Below, piece after piece: positions 47,027 through 53,648 of a stretch of DNA of 64,000 nt (within the stretch, counting starts at the first letter, position 1; each line of letters begins with the position of its first letter). Below the pieces are notes generated by a model, which ran no database searches, was not told the origin of the DNA, and saw only the letters and a program-made list of their open reading frames with translations. This DNA comes from Pseudomonadota bacterium (GTDB lineage: Bacteria > Pseudomonadota > Gammaproteobacteria > Xanthomonadales > Rhodanobacteraceae), in contig JAFEDX010000192.1 of assembly GCA_018241365.1 (NCBI GenBank), positions 1 through 64,000 of the forward strand, in the 5' to 3' direction. The position numbers and the translations under genes were made by a program.

Positions 47027-47557
47027 CTAGTTCCGGACCATTCCACTCCCGGCTGATCGCGACGGACCCGCTCGCCAATGGCGCATGACGCGCTGCGCCA
47101 AGCCATCGATCGAAAGGCGCCCCGGCCCCCACGCGATCACGGCCAGCAGCATCAGGCCCCAGACCTTGTGGTCGGCAAAGTCCGAGGTGTTGAACAGTCC
47201 CGTCCAGAACCCGTGCGGCCACAGGCCCGGGAACGAGGTGAAGGCGATGATGTTGTAGACGAACAGGAACAGCGCCGAGACCCGGCCAAACACGCCGAGG
47301 CCAACGAACCACGGCACGACGAGTTCGATCCAGGTGCCGAGCACCGCTGCGAAATCGGGCGACAGCAGCGGCACGTGGTACACGCTCTCGAACAGGTACT
47401 GCGTGCCCATCGGGTCCTCGAACTTGACCACCCCCGCGTGCCAGAACGCCAGCGCGACCCAGACGCGCAGGCACAGCAATGCCACCGGGCCGAGCCACGC
47501 CTGCAGCCATTCGGCAGCACGGCGATAACAGGTATTCAAGGATTGAACGATTGGCAT
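47027..47557 (-). CDS. bufD1: DoxX-family membrane protein of the bufferin operon
   Basis: Small integral membrane protein of 176 residues with four hydrophobic helices (WLGPVALLCLRVWVALAFWHAGVVKFEDP, AAVLGTWIELVVPWFVGLGVFGRVSALFLFVYNIIAF and a third pair). DoxX members are the usual last gene of buf/gig operons (DUF2282-DUF692-DUF2063-DoxX). Its role in peptide maturation or export is not established; a quinone-linked or export function has been guessed. The ATG at 47557 lies within the end of bufC1 (22-base overlap), so translation is coupled. Symbol is by operon position. Confidence 0.85.
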   Translation of the reverse strand: MPIVQSLNTCYRRAAEWLQAWLGPVALLCLRVWVALAFWHAGVVKFEDPMGTQYLFESVYHVPLLSPDFAAVLGTWIELVVPWFVGLGVFGRVSALFLFVYNIIAFTSFPGLWPHGFWTGLFNTSDFADHKVWGLMLLAVIAWGPGRLSIDGLAQRVMRHWRAGPSRSAGSGMVRN

Positions 47558-48324
47558 GACTGCAGTGCCTGATGGGAAGTGGACGGAGGGAGCGCGGCCA
47601 GCAGGCCGCGATCCACGAGGCTTTCGATGCACGCGGCAAGATCGAAATCGCGATCCTGCTTGCACCCGGCTTGATACGCGTCATCCAGGGTTCCGCCGCG
47701 CGCCAGCGATTCGATGCAGGCGAAGCTCGCGGAATCCAGCGCAGCCATCGCCACCTGATCGTCCTCGCGCCACAGCACGACCTGCTCGCCGGCATCGGCA
47801 AGGTCGAGGCCTGCGTCGGTCGGCTGCGACGCGTAGCGCCAGATCGTCAGGACTGGATACGGGCTGACGAGCAAGCGGACACTCGGATGCAGGCCCGTTT
47901 GGTCCGGGCCATCGTCCAACGACGTTTCGGTGTCGCCAGACAACGCACTTTCCTGCCGCAGCCACTCCAGCCGCGCGACATCGACGAGGTAAGGCAACTC
48001 GTGAATCCCGGGAAGCTCGGTCAAATAATCTGCGAGGTGTTGGCCAAAGGTTTGCAGGTTGCCGCTGTGCGAGGGGTACGCAGCGCGATAACCGCGTGCG
48101 GTTTGCTCGAAGAACGCCTCGCCGACCAAGGCCAACACCGCGGGATAGGATGTGCGCAGGACACCAGCCTGGATCTCGTTGCAACTGTGGCGGTAAATGC
48201 GCAGGCGCGCGGCGGGTTCAAGTCCATTGCCCGCGATCGACGCCAACGGGCCGGCTTCGGCATCGTCGTACAACGCGGCGAGGAAGCGGCGTTGCGTTTC
48301 AAGCAGCGCGGGCACGGCGTGCAT
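47536..48324 (-). CDS. bufC1: DUF2063 (HvfC/BufC-like) partner of the MNIO enzyme
   Basis: Accessory protein that, in known bufferin-type systems, works with the DUF692 enzyme to modify the precursor. The 262-residue protein has the DUF2063 N-terminal domain LLETQRRFLAALYDDAEAGPLASIAGNGLEPAARLRIYRHSCNEIQAGVLRTSYPAVLALVGEAFFEQTARGYRAAYPSHSGNLQTFGQHLADYL, then a second domain with ELPYLVDVARLEW and a degenerate C-terminal winged region (LARGGTLDDAYQAG). GGGGAGG lies upstream of the ATG at 48324, so the earlier ATG at 48342 is less likely. It overlaps bufB1 by 26 bases and bufD1 by 22. Confidence 0.9.
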   Translation of the reverse strand: MHAVPALLETQRRFLAALYDDAEAGPLASIAGNGLEPAARLRIYRHSCNEIQAGVLRTSYPAVLALVGEAFFEQTARGYRAAYPSHSGNLQTFGQHLADYLTELPGIHELPYLVDVARLEWLRQESALSGDTETSLDDGPDQTGLHPSVRLLVSPYPVLTIWRYASQPTDAGLDLADAGEQVVLWREDDQVAMAALDSASFACIESLARGGTLDDAYQAGCKQDRDFDLAACIESLVDRGLLAALPPSTSHQALQSCQSFNP

Positions 48325-49165
48325 CGAGCACCTCCCCGGCATGCGCGGCTTCGTCCAGCAACACTTCCAGTTCGGGAATGTCCTGGTCCCATTCGATCAA
48401 CGTTGGAACGGGACCGAACCGGTCGATCGCGTCGGCGTACAGATCCCAGACGGCGTCATCGACGCGGTGGTTGTGCGAATCGATCAGCAGTGGCACCGGC
48501 AAACCATCCTTGCGGGTGAAGCCGGCCAGATGGATTTCCTTGACCGCGGTGCGCGGCAACGCGTACAGGTACACGTGCGGATCGAAACCGTGGTTGACGC
48601 TGTTGACGTAAATGTTGTTGACGTCGCACAAGAGCCCGCAACCGCTGCGGCGCGCGACTTCGGCGACGAAATCCCATTCGCTGTAATCGCCTTCGCGAAA
48701 GCGCAGGTAGCTGGAAATGTTCTCGACCAGGATTTCCCGGCCGAGCGCGTCCTGCACCTGCCCGATCCTCGTTACCAGCAGGTCCAACGCTGCATCGGTG
48801 AACGGCATCGGCAACAGGTCGTTGCTGTGGCGACCGTCAATCGCACCCCAGCACAGGTGTTCGGAAACCAGCGCCGGCTGGTAGCGATCCACGATCGCCG
48901 CCAGCCGTTGCAAATGCGCAGCATCCAGCCGATCGGCGGAACCCAGCGACAAGCCGACGCCGTGCAGGCTGAGCGGATAGTCCGCGCGGATGCTTTCCAG
49001 TGCGGAATGGAATGAACCGCCCGCTGCGAACAGGTTTTCGCTGTGGGTTTCCAGCCATGCGATGGCCGGGCGCTCGCGCAACACGCGCTGCACGTGCGGG
49101 GCGCGCAATCCGATTCCGGCCGCAGCCGGAATCGGACGCACGCGCGTGACCGATGGATTCGTCAC
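48299..49165 (-). CDS. bufB1: DUF692 multinuclear iron enzyme (MNIO) for bufferin maturation
   Basis: Iron-dependent oxidative enzyme that modifies cysteines of its RiPP precursor, reported to form thiooxazole rings in bufferins. The 288-residue TIM-barrel protein has all the expected metal-site segments: LETHSENLF, LHGVGLSLGSADRLDAAHLQRL, LVSEHLCW, ILVENISSYLRF, GLLCDVNNIYVNSVNHG, EIHLAGF and LLIDSHNHRVDDAVWDLY. The start is the GTG at 49165, ten bases after the precursor stop; a longer reading from 49276 would overlap bufA1 and is not supported. The adjacent precursor, DUF2063 and DoxX genes make the assignment strong. Confidence 0.93.
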   Translation of the reverse strand: MTNPSVTRVRPIPAAAGIGLRAPHVQRVLRERPAIAWLETHSENLFAAGGSFHSALESIRADYPLSLHGVGLSLGSADRLDAAHLQRLAAIVDRYQPALVSEHLCWGAIDGRHSNDLLPMPFTDAALDLLVTRIGQVQDALGREILVENISSYLRFREGDYSEWDFVAEVARRSGCGLLCDVNNIYVNSVNHGFDPHVYLYALPRTAVKEIHLAGFTRKDGLPVPLLIDSHNHRVDDAVWDLYADAIDRFGPVPTLIEWDQDIPELEVLLDEAAHAGEVLDARRARAA

Positions 49166-49175
49166 GGCACGACGC

Positions 49176-49493
49176 TCAACCGGCCTTGAGTCTGCCGCCG
49201 GCGATCTTCGTGCACAAGCCGGCCGGCACCGCCACGAAAGCGCCGGGATCGCGCGCCTTGGAATCCTGGCCCGCACACGAGTGGCCCGGCGACACGCAGT
49301 CGTTCTTGTACGCGGCGTTGATGCCGTAGCACGGGGCGTAGTGCATCTTGGCCATCATCGCTTCGGTCTTTTGCTGCGGGCTCGACTTCATCATCGCGTC
49401 GCCCTGCTGGGCCATGGCGGTGGAAGCGAGGGACGCGAAGCCAAGCGTGATCGCGCAGGCGAGGCTGGTCTTGAGGAGTGCGGCGTTGTTCAT
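49176..49493 (-). CDS. bufA1: Bufferin precursor (DUF2282), secreted Cys-modified RiPP
   Basis: Short exported peptide of 105 residues that is the substrate of BufB1/BufC1; modified bufferins bind copper in the periplasm. It has a signal peptide (LLKTSLACAITLGFASLASTAMA, cleavage near residue 28). The mature part has the conserved DUF2282 core with four cysteines at about 55, 66, 73 and 94: APCYGINAAYKNDC, SPGHSCAGQDS and VPAGLCTKIAGG. Before the core is a Met-rich stretch (M34, M35, M46, M47, M50). A ribosome site GGAGA precedes the ATG. It has its own GTAACC-N16-CGAA promoter and a strong leader hairpin. Confidence 0.93.
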   Translation of the reverse strand: MNNAALLKTSLACAITLGFASLASTAMAQQGDAMMKSSPQQKTEAMMAKMHYAPCYGINAAYKNDCVSPGHSCAGQDSKARDPGAFVAVPAGLCTKIAGGRLKAG

Positions 49494-49520
49494 GGATGTG
49501 TCTCCGTGCTGGAAAGAAGA

Positions 49521-49553
49521 AGGGGTGGAAACGAACGCATCGTTTCCACCCCT
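49521..49553 (-). promoter_or_regulatory. 13-bp hairpin in the bufA1 leader
   Basis: Perfect inverted repeat, arm AGGGGTGGAAACG (49521-49533) with CGTTTCCACCCCT (49541-49553) and a 7-base loop. It lies between the CGAA element (49557-49560) and the bufA1 ATG, so the transcript would begin at or just inside it. On the minus strand it is followed by a T/C-rich stretch (TTCTTCTTTCC). It may be a 5' stabilising stem, the terminator of the sigF-nrsF message, or an attenuator. Confidence 0.75.
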
Positions 49554-49556
49554 CTT

Positions 49557-49582
49557 TTCGTCACGGGTACGCCGCAGGTTAC
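49557..49582 (-). promoter_or_regulatory. ECF (SigF-type) promoter of bufA1
   Basis: On the minus strand: GTAACC (49582-49577), exactly 16 bases, CGAA (49560-49557). Identical boxes and spacing occur upstream of the sigma gene and of dipZ. It drives bufA1-bufB1-bufC1-bufD1. Confidence 0.88.
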
Positions 49583-49610
49583 GTCGAGGCGCTACAGCGG
49601 TTGCACGGCG

Positions 49611-50267
49611 TCAGCGCGGCGACAGCAGCCGATTGCCCAGCACCGCGTTGGCCACCACCACGATCGCGACGGCAAGGCCGTGGATCAGCAGGTCGGTCGC
49701 GGCCGCATCGTAGGGATGGAAGATCGCCAGCAACACCGCCGCGGCCGCGGCACTCGCCAGCCCCATCAGGATCGCGGTGAGCACCGGCCGCAAGGGGCAC
49801 GCGCGGCGCAGCAGCCACAGCATCAGCGCCGACAGCGGGATCGACACGAGGACGATGAACGTCAGGCAGCGGGCTGGCGGAGCCGAGGCGCTGGCGATGT
49901 TGGCGGCCGGTGCAAACCAGTCACGCAGGCAGCCGAACCCGCTGGCGCCGATCCACAGCAGAACGCCCGGCAGCGCCAGCCACGCCCACGCGCGCGAACG
50001 CCCGGGCACGCCGAGTGTGAGCGCGGCCCAGGCCGCGCCCACGACCGTGAGCACGGCGCCCGCGAAACCCCACGCGCGTTCGGGCACGGCGGCGAAGCGG
50101 TCCAGCATCGGCGCGGCGCCGAAATGCAGCAACAATCCGGCCGCGATCGCCGCCACCACCGCCAGCCAGCCGAGCGCACGCAGCCACGGCGGCAGCAGGC
50201 GCCGCACCGGCGTCAATCCGGCACCCAGTGATTCGATCAATTCCTGTTGGCGCGGCACGCTGGACAT
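49611..50267 (-). CDS. nrsF: DUF1109/NrsF-type transmembrane anti-sigma factor
   Basis: Predicted inner-membrane inhibitor of the adjacent ECF sigma factor. The 218-residue protein has six hydrophobic helices (ALGWLAVVAAIAAGLLLHFG, WGFAGAVLTVVGAAWAALTLG, AWAWLALPGVLLWIGASGFG, FIVLVSIPLSALMLWLLR, PVLTAILMGLASAAAAAVLLAI, LIHGLAVAIVVVANAVLG). Three cysteines at about 113, 134 and 157 (GFGCLRDW, PPARCLTF, RRACPLRP) are near helix ends. In the Caulobacter homologue, cysteines are needed to release the sigma factor on metal exposure. Start at 50267, four bases after the sigma stop; an ATG at 50285 is an alternative. Co-transcribed with the sigma gene. Confidence 0.88.
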   Translation of the reverse strand: MSSVPRQQELIESLGAGLTPVRRLLPPWLRALGWLAVVAAIAAGLLLHFGAAPMLDRFAAVPERAWGFAGAVLTVVGAAWAALTLGVPGRSRAWAWLALPGVLLWIGASGFGCLRDWFAPAANIASASAPPARCLTFIVLVSIPLSALMLWLLRRACPLRPVLTAILMGLASAAAAAVLLAIFHPYDAAATDLLIHGLAVAIVVVANAVLGNRLLSPR

Positions 50268-50271
50268 GGGC

Positions 50272-50853
50272 CTATGATCCTCCATGCAGGCGCTCGCGCA
50301 AGGACTTCAGCGCGCGGTGCAGGTTCACTTTCAAGGCACCGGCGGTGCTGCCGGTTTCGGCGGCCGCCTCCGCCAAGGTGCGTTCCCTCAGGCCCAATTG
50401 TTCAACCGCTTCGCGCTGCCGCGGCGGCAGGCCCGCGACGGCCGCCTGCAGGCGTTGCGCATGCTGCGCGCGCTCGCTCTCGGCACTGGCATCGTCGCGG
50501 TCCGGATGCTGTTCGAGCGCGAGCTCGTCCTGGATTTCGCGGCGGCTGCGGCGGCCATGGCTGCGCAGCGCGTCGATCGCACGACGCTCGGCGATGGCGG
50601 CCAGCCACGCATCGTAGGAACGCGACGGATCGTAGGTGCGCCGCACCCGGTCCACGGTGATGAGGGTTTCCTGTACCACGTCGTCGAGCGCGTCTGCCGG
50701 CACGCCGCGGCGGCGCGCCACGTTGCGGATCAACGCCACCGAATCGGCCAGCACGCGCTCGTAGGCGCGGCGGTCGCCGGACTGCGCGGCCGCCATCCAC
50801 GCCCGGCGTTGCCGATCGGCGTCGTCGCTGCCGCTGGCTGTGTCGTCGTGCAT
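50272..50853 (-). CDS. sigF: ECF sigma factor (SigF-like) controlling the bufferin regulon
   Basis: RNA polymerase sigma factor of 193 residues. Region 2 is VALIRNVARRRGVPADALDDVVQETLITVDRVRRTYDPSRSYDAWLAAIAERRAIDALRS and region 4 is LPPRQREAVEQLGLRERTLAEAAAETGSTAGALKVNLHRALKSLRERL. Regions 1.1 and 3 are absent, as in ECF factors. Its immediate neighbour is a DUF1109 anti-sigma factor, matching the Caulobacter SigF-NrsF pair that answers heavy-metal stress. The start at 50853 is chosen over an ATG at 51009, which would lie upstream of the predicted promoter. It is likely autoregulated from the promoter at 50951-50976. Symbol is by analogy. Confidence 0.9.
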   Translation of the reverse strand: MHDDTASGSDDADRQRRAWMAAAQSGDRRAYERVLADSVALIRNVARRRGVPADALDDVVQETLITVDRVRRTYDPSRSYDAWLAAIAERRAIDALRSHGRRSRREIQDELALEQHPDRDDASAESERAQHAQRLQAAVAGLPPRQREAVEQLGLRERTLAEAAAETGSTAGALKVNLHRALKSLRERLHGGS

Positions 50854-50950: not shown

Positions 50951-50976
50951 TTCGCGCCAGTCGATGCAACGGTTAC
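50951..50976 (-). promoter_or_regulatory. ECF (SigF-type) promoter of sigF-nrsF
   Basis: On the minus strand: GTAACC (50976-50971), 16 bases, CGAA (50954-50951), about 97 bases before the sigF ATG. It predicts positive autoregulation. The 418-base gap between sigF and dipZ also contains a palindromic repeat (51021-51190) and the dipZ promoter; I see no other gene in it. Confidence 0.88.
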
Positions 50977-51020
50977 ATGCGGACGCTGCACCAAGGAAGA
51001 TCTGACCAATCCCGCTTTTC

Positions 51021-51190
51021 GTCATTCCCGCGAAAGCGGACTGTGTTGGCAGGACTGCCAACGCGAACGCCGCTGGCGACCTGAAAGGCGAGCGCCAAGG
51101 ATGGCGCGAGTCTATCCAGTGATTTTTCGGTAACACGTTGCCTTGCAAAGACGCTGGATCCCGGATATCGCTTCGCGCTTCTGGGATGAC
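51021..51190. repeat. Composite palindromic repeat between sigF and dipZ
   Basis: Ends resemble the TCATTCC family at 5811-5939 (left GTCATTCCCGCG, right CTGGATCCCGG...TGGGATGAC). Inside lies the other family, with hairpin GTTGGCAGGACTGCCAAC (51045-51062) and the GAAAGGCGAGCG/GGATGGCGCGAGT tail seen near 30690-30775. It looks like one repeat family inserted within another. Non-coding. Confidence 0.65.
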
Positions 51191-51214
51191 GAGCAAAATC
51201 AGATCTTTCCTGAC

Positions 51215-51240
51215 GTAACCAGGACGGCTTCCGGTGCGAA
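51215..51240 (+). promoter_or_regulatory. ECF (SigF-type) promoter of dipZ-msrB
   Basis: Plus strand: GTAACC (51215-51220), 16 bases, CGAA (51237-51240), ending 31 bases before the dipZ ATG. This third exact copy of the motif places dipZ-msrB in the same regulon as the bufferin operon. Confidence 0.87.
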
Positions 51241-51271: not shown

Positions 51272-52999
51272 ATGACCCTGCTGCTGCTCGCCTACTTCGG
51301 TGGTGTCCTCACCATCCTCAGCCCCTGCATCCTGCCGGTGCTGCCATTCGTGTTCGCGCGCTCGGACCGGCCGTTCCGGCGCAACGGGCTGCCGATGCTG
51401 GCCGGCATGGCAATCACCTTCGCGCTGGTCGCCACGCTGGCGACCGTGGGTGGTGGTTGGGCGGTGCATGCGAACCAGTTCGGCCGCGGCGTGGCGCTGG
51501 CGGTGCTGGCGCTGCTGGGCCTGAGCCTGCTGTCCACGCGCATGGCCAGGTGGCTCACGCGTCCTTTCGTCGCCTTGGGCAACAGGCTGTCGCAGCGTTC
51601 TGCGCAAGGTGACGGTTCGGTGTGGGCCGCAGCGGGCCTCGGCGTTGCCACCGGCCTGTTGTGGGCACCGTGCGCGGGGCCGATCCTGGGCCTGCTGCTG
51701 ACCGGCGCAGCGCTGCATGGCGCCAGCGTGGACACTACGCTGTTACTGTTCATGTACGCCGCGGGCGCGGCAACGTCGCTGGCGCTGGCCTTGCTCGTGG
51801 GCGGCCGGTTGTTCGCCCTGATGAAGCGTTCGCTGGGCGTCGGCGAATGGATCCGTCGCGGGTTGGGCGTCGCGGTGCTGGCCGGCGTGGTGGCAATCGG
51901 ACTCGGCGCCGACACCGGCTTGCTGACCCGGATCTCGCTGCCCGGCAGCAACGCCATCGAACAGAAACTGGTCGACGCAGTGGCGCCCGCGCCTGCGATG
52001 GCCGCACCGGCCGCGCCCGCATCCGATGCGTCATTGCCGATCGAGGGCGAACTGCCGTCGCTGGCCGGCGCCACCGGCTGGCTCAACACGGCGCCGCTGA
52101 CGCCCGCGGCGCTGCGCGGCAAGGTGGTGCTGGTGGATTTCTGGACGTATTCCTGCATCAACTGCCTGCGCTCGCTGCCCTACGTCGAAGCGTGGTCGCG
52201 GAAGTACCAGGATCATGGCCTCGTGGTGATCGGCGTGCACACGCCGGAATTCGCGTTCGAGAAGGCCGCGGCCAACGTCGCCGCAGCCGTGAAGCGGCTG
52301 GGAGTGACCTACCCGGTCGCGCTGGACAGCGACTACGCGGTCTGGCGGGCCTTCAACAACCAGTACTGGCCGGCCGATTACTTCATCGATGCCAAGGGCC
52401 GCATCCGCCACCACTACTTCGGCGAGGGTGGCTACAAGGACGGCGAAGATGTCATCCGCCAGCTGCTCGGCGCAGCCGGCTACACCAACCTGCCCGGTGG
52501 TTACGTCGATCCCAACGCGAAGGGTGCGGAGGCCGCGGTCGCGTTCGGCATGCTGCGCTCGCCGGAAACCTACGTGGGATTCGCGCGCGCCGAAAACTTC
52601 GCGGGCGGCGCAGTGGCGCGCGATGTCGCAACCGACTATCGCGCACCGTCGCAACTGGGCATCAACCAGTGGGCGCTTGCCGGCCGCTGGACCGTGCGGC
52701 CCGACGATGCGGTGCTGGACGCGAGCCCCGGCGGCATCACCTACCGCTTCCGCGGCCGCGACCTGCACCTGGTGCTGGGGCCGGCCGCCGATGGCAAGCC
52801 GGTGCGTTTCCGCGTCACGCTCGACGGCAAGCCACCCGGTGCCGACCACGGCGTGGATATCAATGCGAATGGTGACGGTACCGTCACCGCCCAGCGCCTG
52901 TACCAGTTGGTGCGCCAGGTTGACGGCGACGAGGAGCGGACGTTCACGATCACCTTCCTCGACCCGGGCGTGCACGCGTACGCCTTCACCTTTGGTTGA
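51272..52999 (+). CDS. DipZ-like CcdA-thioredoxin fusion (thiol-disulfide carrier)
   Basis: Moves reducing equivalents from the cytoplasm across the membrane to periplasmic targets. The 575-residue protein has an N-terminal CcdA domain (about 1-220) with its two redox cysteines in SPCILP (C19) and APCAGP (C134). An Ala/Pro linker follows, then a TlpA/thioredoxin domain (about 255-405) with active site SCINCLRS (C295, C298) and WPADYFIDAKGRIRHHYFGEG. A C-terminal DipZ-type beta domain (about 420-575) completes it. It is 31 bases upstream of a Tat-exported MsrB, the likely electron acceptor. A GTAACC-N16-CGAA promoter lies just upstream. Confidence 0.92.
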   Translation: MTLLLLAYFGGVLTILSPCILPVLPFVFARSDRPFRRNGLPMLAGMAITFALVATLATVGGGWAVHANQFGRGVALAVLALLGLSLLSTRMARWLTRPFVALGNRLSQRSAQGDGSVWAAAGLGVATGLLWAPCAGPILGLLLTGAALHGASVDTTLLLFMYAAGAATSLALALLVGGRLFALMKRSLGVGEWIRRGLGVAVLAGVVAIGLGADTGLLTRISLPGSNAIEQKLVDAVAPAPAMAAPAAPASDASLPIEGELPSLAGATGWLNTAPLTPAALRGKVVLVDFWTYSCINCLRSLPYVEAWSRKYQDHGLVVIGVHTPEFAFEKAAANVAAAVKRLGVTYPVALDSDYAVWRAFNNQYWPADYFIDAKGRIRHHYFGEGGYKDGEDVIRQLLGAAGYTNLPGGYVDPNAKGAEAAVAFGMLRSPETYVGFARAENFAGGAVARDVATDYRAPSQLGINQWALAGRWTVRPDDAVLDASPGGITYRFRGRDLHLVLGPAADGKPVRFRVTLDGKPPGADHGVDINANGDGTVTAQRLYQLVRQVDGDEERTFTITFLDPGVHAYAFTFG

Positions 53000-53030
53000 C
53001 CCATCGCAGCGCGCAGCGCAGGAGCAGGCC

Positions 53031-53648
53031 ATGCCACGCAACCCTCCCATCGACACGTCCCGGCGGCGCTTGCTGCAATGCGCAGCGGGGGGCGCCGCGG
53101 TGCTCGTCACCGGCGGCCTGTTCAAAAGCCTCATCGCCTTCGCCGATGGCGTTGGCACCGATGCGCCGGGATTGATCCGCACCACGCCGGGCGAGGCCTT
53201 GCTCGAAATCTTCGGCGATGACGGCCGCGACCTCGGCCCGCGGCGCATGCCGCGGCTGGTGCTGGACGACGCCGCGTGGCACCGGCGGCTGTCGCCGGCG
53301 GCGTTCGCGATCCTGCGCCGCGGCGGCACCGAACCTGCCTTCAGCGGCGCGCACGAACGGCCTGCGGCACGCGGGCTGTTCCGCTGCGCCGGTTGCGCCA
53401 CGGCGCTTTACGACGACGCCACCGAGTTCGACTCCGGCACCGGCTGGCCGAGCTTCTGGCAGCCGATCTCGCCGCACAATGTGGTCGAGCTGCGCGACAT
53501 CAGCTTCGGCATGCTGCGCACGGAAATCCGCTGCGCCCGCTGCGCGGGACACCTGGGCCACGTCTTCGACGATGGCCCGCCGCCGACCGGGTTGCGCTAC
53601 TGCATGAATTCGCTGGCGTTGCGCTTCGTGGCACGGACCCGTGCCTGA
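53031..53648 (+). CDS. msrB: Tat-exported methionine-(R)-sulfoxide reductase MsrB
   Basis: Reduces methionine R-sulfoxide in the periplasm. The 205-residue protein has a twin-arginine signal (TSRRRLLQCAAGGAAVLVTGGLF). An MsrB domain follows with four zinc cysteines (C119, C122, C168, C171: FRCAGCA and IRCARCAGHLGHVF) and the catalytic Cys191 in GLRYCMNSLALRF. The usual resolving-Cys position (SGCGWPSF) is Thr here (SGTGWPSFW), so direct reduction by a thioredoxin domain is expected. That fits the neighbouring DipZ-like protein. GGAGCAGG precedes the ATG. Confidence 0.94.
   Translation: MPRNPPIDTSRRRLLQCAAGGAAVLVTGGLFKSLIAFADGVGTDAPGLIRTTPGEALLEIFGDDGRDLGPRRMPRLVLDDAAWHRRLSPAAFAILRRGGTEPAFSGAHERPAARGLFRCAGCATALYDDATEFDSGTGWPSFWQPISPHNVVELRDISFGMLRTEIRCARCAGHLGHVFDDGPPPTGLRYCMNSLALRFVARTRA

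Follow-up and report, generated by a model that had tools for sequence, protein, structure and literature searches.

The SigF/NrsF regulon of Caulobacter comprises two buf operons (CC3254-CC3257 and CC2907-CC2905) together with msrPQ (CC2748) (PMC3511200, PMC8224329). Its SigF promoter motif is GTAACC-N16-CGAA (PMC3511200), and both induction by copper and a copper-sensitive sigF mutant have been reported (PMC8224329). Buf1 bufferins, or captophorins, are MNIO-PME1 RiPPs made from a DUF2282 precursor with a signal peptide and four cysteines, encoded in the order bufABC together with BufB and a DUF2063 partner (PMC12452194, PMC12668002). For bufferins, copper binding by thiooxazoles and the pattern of disulfide bonding have been described (PMC12452194). 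Clusters that combine bufferin genes with those for a sigma factor and NrsF have also been published (PMC12452194), so a cluster of this composition is as such already known. The gig cluster of Cupriavidus metallidurans, which by its description is of the same kind, is induced by gold, silver and copper (PMC8224329). In Azospira and Brucella, MXKDX-type peptides and Msr under SigF/NrsF-type pairs act against hypochlorite (PMC8315932, PMC4623255).

Here we analyze a locus within a stretch of 64,000 nucleotides ("the window") of a bacterium that had been assigned to the Rhodanobacteraceae, an assignment in line with the named homologues (Fulvimonas, Rhodanobacter and Dyella). Our analysis makes it probable that the locus is a SigF/NrsF envelope-stress regulon, consisting of the sigF-nrsF operon, dipZ-msrB and a captured copper-bufferin operon bufABC-doxX. 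At the sequence level this reading draws on gene identities, three exact SigF motifs, the conservation of motif and hairpin, slot occupancy and gene trees. The locus shares with Caulobacter the ECF sigma factor, an NrsF-family anti-sigma factor, the DUF2282, MNIO, DUF2063 and DoxX proteins, an identical promoter motif and an Msr system in the regulon. It differs in that sigF-nrsF lies ahead of bufABC-doxX in the same orientation, in having dipZ-msrB in place of MsrPQ, and in an NrsF without the second conserved cysteine. In Caulobacter, SigF controls sigF-nrsF and the buf genes as separate units (PMC3511200), and the match in gene order and coupling that the original prediction had seen is not supported. 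With the ECF16 regulons mrpX-yedYZ of Azospira and bcrXQP of Brucella the locus has in common a sigF-nrsF-type pair, msr genes and a secreted peptide behind the same promoter motif; unlike in those regulons, the slot holds bufA and its operon rather than a gene for an MXKDX peptide.

The six collinear minus-strand genes predicted between 47027 and 50853 are all present, and their junctions were described correctly (a gap of 10 bases between bufA and bufB, overlaps of 26 bases for bufB/bufC and 22 bases for bufC/doxX). Pfam matches of all six proteins exceed the curated cut-offs. They bear out the proposed identities, including a DUF692 enzyme of 288 residues, a DUF2282 peptide of 105 residues and an anti-sigma factor of the NrsF family (Table 1), and the bufferin/MNIO RiPP class is corroborated by the NCBIfam model MNIO_BufB (NF050167), which BufB matches with 381.8 bits (cut-off 310). 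Seven BufB residues (His68, His103, Glu148, Asp181, His212, Asp229 and His231) align with identical residues in PDB entries 3BWW, 8HCI and MbnB 7TCR. The SigF product also matches TIGR02937 (NCBIfam, 84 bits) and is 66-88% identical to the sigF products of sigF-nrsF-msr loci across the Rhodanobacteraceae. BufA has a Sec-type signal peptide ending in STAMA before QQ (judged by eye), four cysteines in its mature part (C55, C66, C73 and C94) and, as a difference from the described Buf1 bufferins, a Met-rich linker before the core with five Met in 17 residues, which is common to BufA of the genus. BufC and DoxX match general models only; BufC scores 43.9 bits with an HvfC-like model, below its cut-off of 142, and a sequence search found no PDB relative of BufC. 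In the genome, PF05114, PF10048 and PF06532 each have a single match. The BufB-subfamily MNIO gene lies directly downstream of the precursor gene with the DUF2063 gene next, as in Buf1 clusters, and the ECF sigma gene adjoins the NrsF/DUF1109 gene, as in SigF/NrsF (ECF16) regulons. Judged by its sequence, the locus is a genuine bufferin gene set, new in arrangement and of a kind already known. The prediction of a complete locus holds for the six genes and falls short in extent, since the functional set runs past 50853 to the divergent dipZ-msrB (51272-53648). Three SigF promoters, dipZ-msrB itself, a leader hairpin and the Met-rich peptide that relatives carry in the same slot had not been noticed.

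Table 1. Features of the SigF/NrsF-bufferin locus, in order of position in the window.
Feature	Position	Strand	Description
doxX/bufD	47027..47557	-	DoxX-family membrane protein, 176 aa; PF07681 56.2 bits
bufC	47536..48324	-	DUF2063 partner (PME1-type), 262 aa; PF09836 68.5 bits
bufB	48299..49165	-	MNIO (formerly DUF692) maturase, GTG start, 288 aa; PF05114 MbnB_TglH_ChrH 354 bits
bufA	49176..49493	-	DUF2282 bufferin precursor, 105 aa; PF10048 59.2 bits
Leader hairpin	49520..49554	-	15 pairs, 5-base loop, pyrimidine tail, directly after the bufA -10 element; terminator-like
SigF promoter motif upstream of bufA	49557..49582	-	exact match, between nrsF and bufA; kept in L049 with another spacer
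nrsF	49611..50267	-	anti-sigma factor, 218 aa; PF06532 (DUF1109) 77.9 bits; C134 kept, Phe183 at second sensor cysteine
sigF	50272..50853	-	ECF sigma factor, NrsF-partnered, SigF/ECF16-like, 193 aa; Sigma70_r2 and r4_2 (PF04542, PF08281) above Pfam cut-off
SigF promoter motif upstream of sigF	50951..50976	-	exact match; present in family loci too
SigF promoter motif upstream of dipZ-msrB	51215..51240	+	exact match, divergent; divergent motif in most family loci
dipZ-like	51272..52999	+	DsbD_TM, thioredoxin-like and Thioredoxin_10, membrane thiol-reductant protein, 575 aa
msrB	53013..53648	+	peptide-methionine (R)-S-oxide reductase, 211 aa; PF01641 147 bits

The exact motif GTAACC-N16-CGAA occurs three times in the window, each time in one of the two relevant gaps of the locus. 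From base composition, 0.08 exact copies would be expected by chance in the whole window and 0.0007 in the two gaps. The whole assembly holds four exact copies, the fourth inside a transporter-like ORF. All three motifs of the locus recur in a locus of a congener (L049, genome G024) with changed spacers, and among 39 family loci of this sigF-nrsF lineage the motif precedes sigF in every one and is found divergently in 37. With spacers of 15-17 bases, the genome-wide search gave 15 matches compared with 14 in a reversed control, i.e. no enrichment, so that the case for the promoters rests on exact spacing, position and conservation. We abandoned the attempt to define a SigF regulon across the genome by motif matches alone, given the lack of excess over the reversed control and the position of the fourth exact site within an ORF. 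SigF control of the locus itself is well supported by these sequence features. Since the 117-base gap between nrsF and bufA holds both a promoter motif and a terminator-like hairpin, the six genes probably form two minus-strand transcription units, sigF-nrsF and bufABC-doxX, next to a divergent dipZ-msrB unit. The two divergent SigF promoters are about 240 bases apart here, compared with about 24 in L049, and the insert between them (50990-51205) is a dispersed intergenic repeat, parts of which occur at ten other places in the genome with 75-96% identity.

MsrB matches TIGR00357 with 154.5 bits (cut-off 113) and has a twin-arginine-like N-terminus with the motif SRRRLL (judged by eye). Its gene is divergent in all 39 family loci of the sigF lineage except for one at a contig edge; dipZ is missing in seven of them, including L049. 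In two further family genomes bufABC-doxX is followed at a short distance by an MsrB gene, with no SigF nearby (L053, 9828-10277; L054, 9886-10281).

BufB homologues were sought in 117 genomes of the family, SigF in 16 genomes of the genus and NrsF in 299 genomes of the order, and the regions were then compared; a scan of named genomes gave six related family loci. Of the 39 Rhodanobacteraceae loci of this lineage, 37 have sigF-nrsF-msr without bufferin genes, and bufABC-doxX stands behind nrsF only in the window genome and in L049. A secreted Met-rich peptide is encoded after nrsF in at least 19 of the 39, in 15 of them directly behind nrsF with its own SigF motif; in L110, L114, L184 and L185 it lies further downstream without the motif. 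The congeners G042 (L172) and G083 (L174) carry such a peptide with the SigF motif in the slot. The peptides of L172 (61.9 bits) and L116 (60 bits) pass the cut-off of 41 of the MXKDX model TIGR02953, which that of L174 fails (15.5 bits), and an MXKDX homologue was found neither in the window's genome nor in G024. What is new here is the arrangement, with bufABC-doxX in the SigF/NrsF slot that the Met-rich peptide holds in relatives. No paper on MXKDX together with DUF2282 or bufferin was found in the literature searched, which left most subscription journals outside and makes this weak evidence of novelty. None of the other buf operons of the family (L050-L064) adjoins an nrsF gene, and a SigF motif was not seen immediately before bufA in them. 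Upstream of bufA, four non-SigF buf operons (L050-L052 and L056) have in common a stretch similar to TGAATCCTTTTGCC...CTATGGGGTA, which a different ECF sigma factor may recognize. A second, distant sigF-nrsF lineage of the family (L138-L141, SigF 30-33% identical) is divergent to buf operons and more Caulobacter-like.

The leader of the slot was assessed by shuffles and by comparison with sigF leaders. A hairpin is predicted after the promoter in 16 of 17 slot leaders, in diverged sequences and whichever peptide is encoded. Its z-score against shuffles averages -3.4 over the 17 slot leaders compared with +0.2 for sigF leaders (Mann-Whitney p 4e-6, an optimistic value because the sequences are related). 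A few compensatory changes were seen between close pairs, and a MAFFT alignment of the slot leaders did not line the stems up. Classical bufA leaders have a hairpin inconsistently, and the only match in an Rfam search was below threshold and lay within nrsF on the opposite strand. In our reading the hairpin, lying between nrsF and bufA, probably terminates transcripts of sigF-nrsF and also makes up the 5' end of bufA mRNA, two roles that are compatible with each other. It is quite conceivable that it is an intrinsic terminator only, without a role in the bufA mRNA: it scored as terminator-like on both strands with T-rich tails, although calls of this sort are hardly unusual (3 were found, and shuffled versions of the region average 3.4). 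Against a terminator alone speaks its position directly after the -10 element in those 16 leaders of diverged sequence, which puts it at the 5' end of the slot transcript or close to it.

Taking SigF dependence, modification chemistry, copper binding and oxidant repair from the work on Caulobacter, Brucella and Azospira, the regulon would operate as follows. The membrane anti-sigma factor NrsF would hold SigF until stress on NrsF frees it, and freed SigF would transcribe sigF-nrsF, the divergent dipZ-msrB and bufABC-doxX. DipZ and MsrB would provide periplasmic thiol supply and methionine-sulfoxide repair. BufB with BufC would turn the central BufA cysteines C66 and C73 into thiooxazoles, C55 and C94 would form a disulfide, and the Sec-exported bufferin would sequester excess periplasmic copper, a binding that we infer for the window bufferin from Caulobacter. 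A response to copper/oxidant envelope stress is the likely role. We consider it rather unlikely that the regulon is directed mainly against reactive chlorine or other oxidants, with the bufferin a sacrificial oxidant sink like MrpX/BcrX and copper secondary. Such a sink would fit the MXKDX-type peptide in the same slot of relatives, the Brucella BcrS/AbcS and Azospira SigF/NrsF systems, which control a Met-rich peptide and Msr and answer HOCl/reactive chlorine (PMC8315932, PMC4623255), and the Met content of the linker in a BufA that is also thiol-rich. However, congener BufA without SigF has the Met-rich linker too, which is thus not tied to the SigF regulon, and the bufferins characterized so far bind copper. 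The same congener linker led us to drop the idea that BufA is a fusion with the Met-rich peptide. In other genera, BufA ends in a short Met-rich tail (L057, L058, L060 and L061; e.g. AMMEHDGMMKKS) in place of the Met-rich linker of this genus.

In the SigF tree the window sequence pairs with that of L049 (support 100/97), and the two join the congeners L172 and L173 (100/98), as vertical descent would predict; L174 is placed elsewhere, though weakly supported. In the BufB tree the window and L049 (95/84) are sister to non-SigF bufB copies from the same genus (91/88), and a single clade of the genus (100/99) unites them all. Genome G024 keeps both kinds of bufB: it carries one buf operon behind sigF-nrsF (L049) and a second (L052) with a leader sequence of its own and another ECF-type sigma gene behind it. 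Given the gene trees and the presence of both operons in G024, the simplest reading is capture. Of the two elements, the sigF-nrsF/(dipZ-)msrB unit probably came first in the Rhodanobacteraceae, and the trees suggest that a genus-level bufABC-doxX operon was copied or captured, within the genus, into the slot behind nrsF. An ancestral bufferin in the slot that was lost elsewhere is less economical yet conceivable, as only two genomes carry the captured arrangement. That the locus is a plain Caulobacter-type gig/buf copper locus inherited whole, with dipZ-msrB and the Met-rich peptides of relatives unrelated to it, is improbable, for although the gene families and the SigF motif are those of Caulobacter and SigF drives an Msr system there too, the classical gig-type loci of the order (L066, L131-L136) have bufABC(-doxX) before sigF-nrsF and encode distant proteins (SigF 40-46%, BufB 44-51% identical), the sigF-nrsF-msr lineage mostly lacks buf genes, and BufB of the window and L049 nests with the non-SigF copies of the genus. 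The order sigF-nrsF followed by bufABC-doxX appears to be a separate assembly inside the genus, distinct from that of Caulobacter. In this family a buf operon can reside on a plasmid, as seen from Rhodanobacter denitrificans, where plasmids NZ_CP088981.1 and NZ_CP088926.1 encode a BufB 69.6% identical to that of the window.

The first sensor cysteine of NrsF (C134 in the window) is invariant in the 56 sequences compared. The second is Cys in 30 of 38 NrsF of the lineage and is replaced by Phe in the window, which therefore retains one of the two conserved cysteines. With 19.6 bits for the NCBIfam equivalog NF042994 (cut-off 300), the protein is a divergent NrsF and not a Caulobacter-type equivalog. 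Replacing either cysteine by serine raises basal expression in Caulobacter (PMC3511200). In view of the replaced cysteine, the window NrsF may respond differently from, and to a signal other than, that of Caulobacter. The NrsF signal is itself unsettled in the literature, the Caulobacter work pointing to metals and the work on Azospira and Brucella to reactive chlorine. We tentatively propose, as a possibility short of a firm conclusion, that SigF/NrsF regulons contain an exchangeable effector slot, a promoter-hairpin cassette filled by either a Met-rich oxidant sink or a copper-RiPP operon, so that the sensor would serve reactive chlorine or copper according to its cargo, and the sensor cysteines of NrsF would change in step.

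Sacrificial methionine with Msr repair and copper-binding RiPPs, both of them periplasmic defences, are brought together in this regulon. Within one genus, the same sigF-nrsF-msr unit with either a bufferin or a Met-rich peptide offers matched pairs, in which one can ask whether the signal or only the product has changed. The presence of a bufferin where relatives keep a Met-rich peptide suggests that the protective product of a single envelope-stress sensor can be exchanged.
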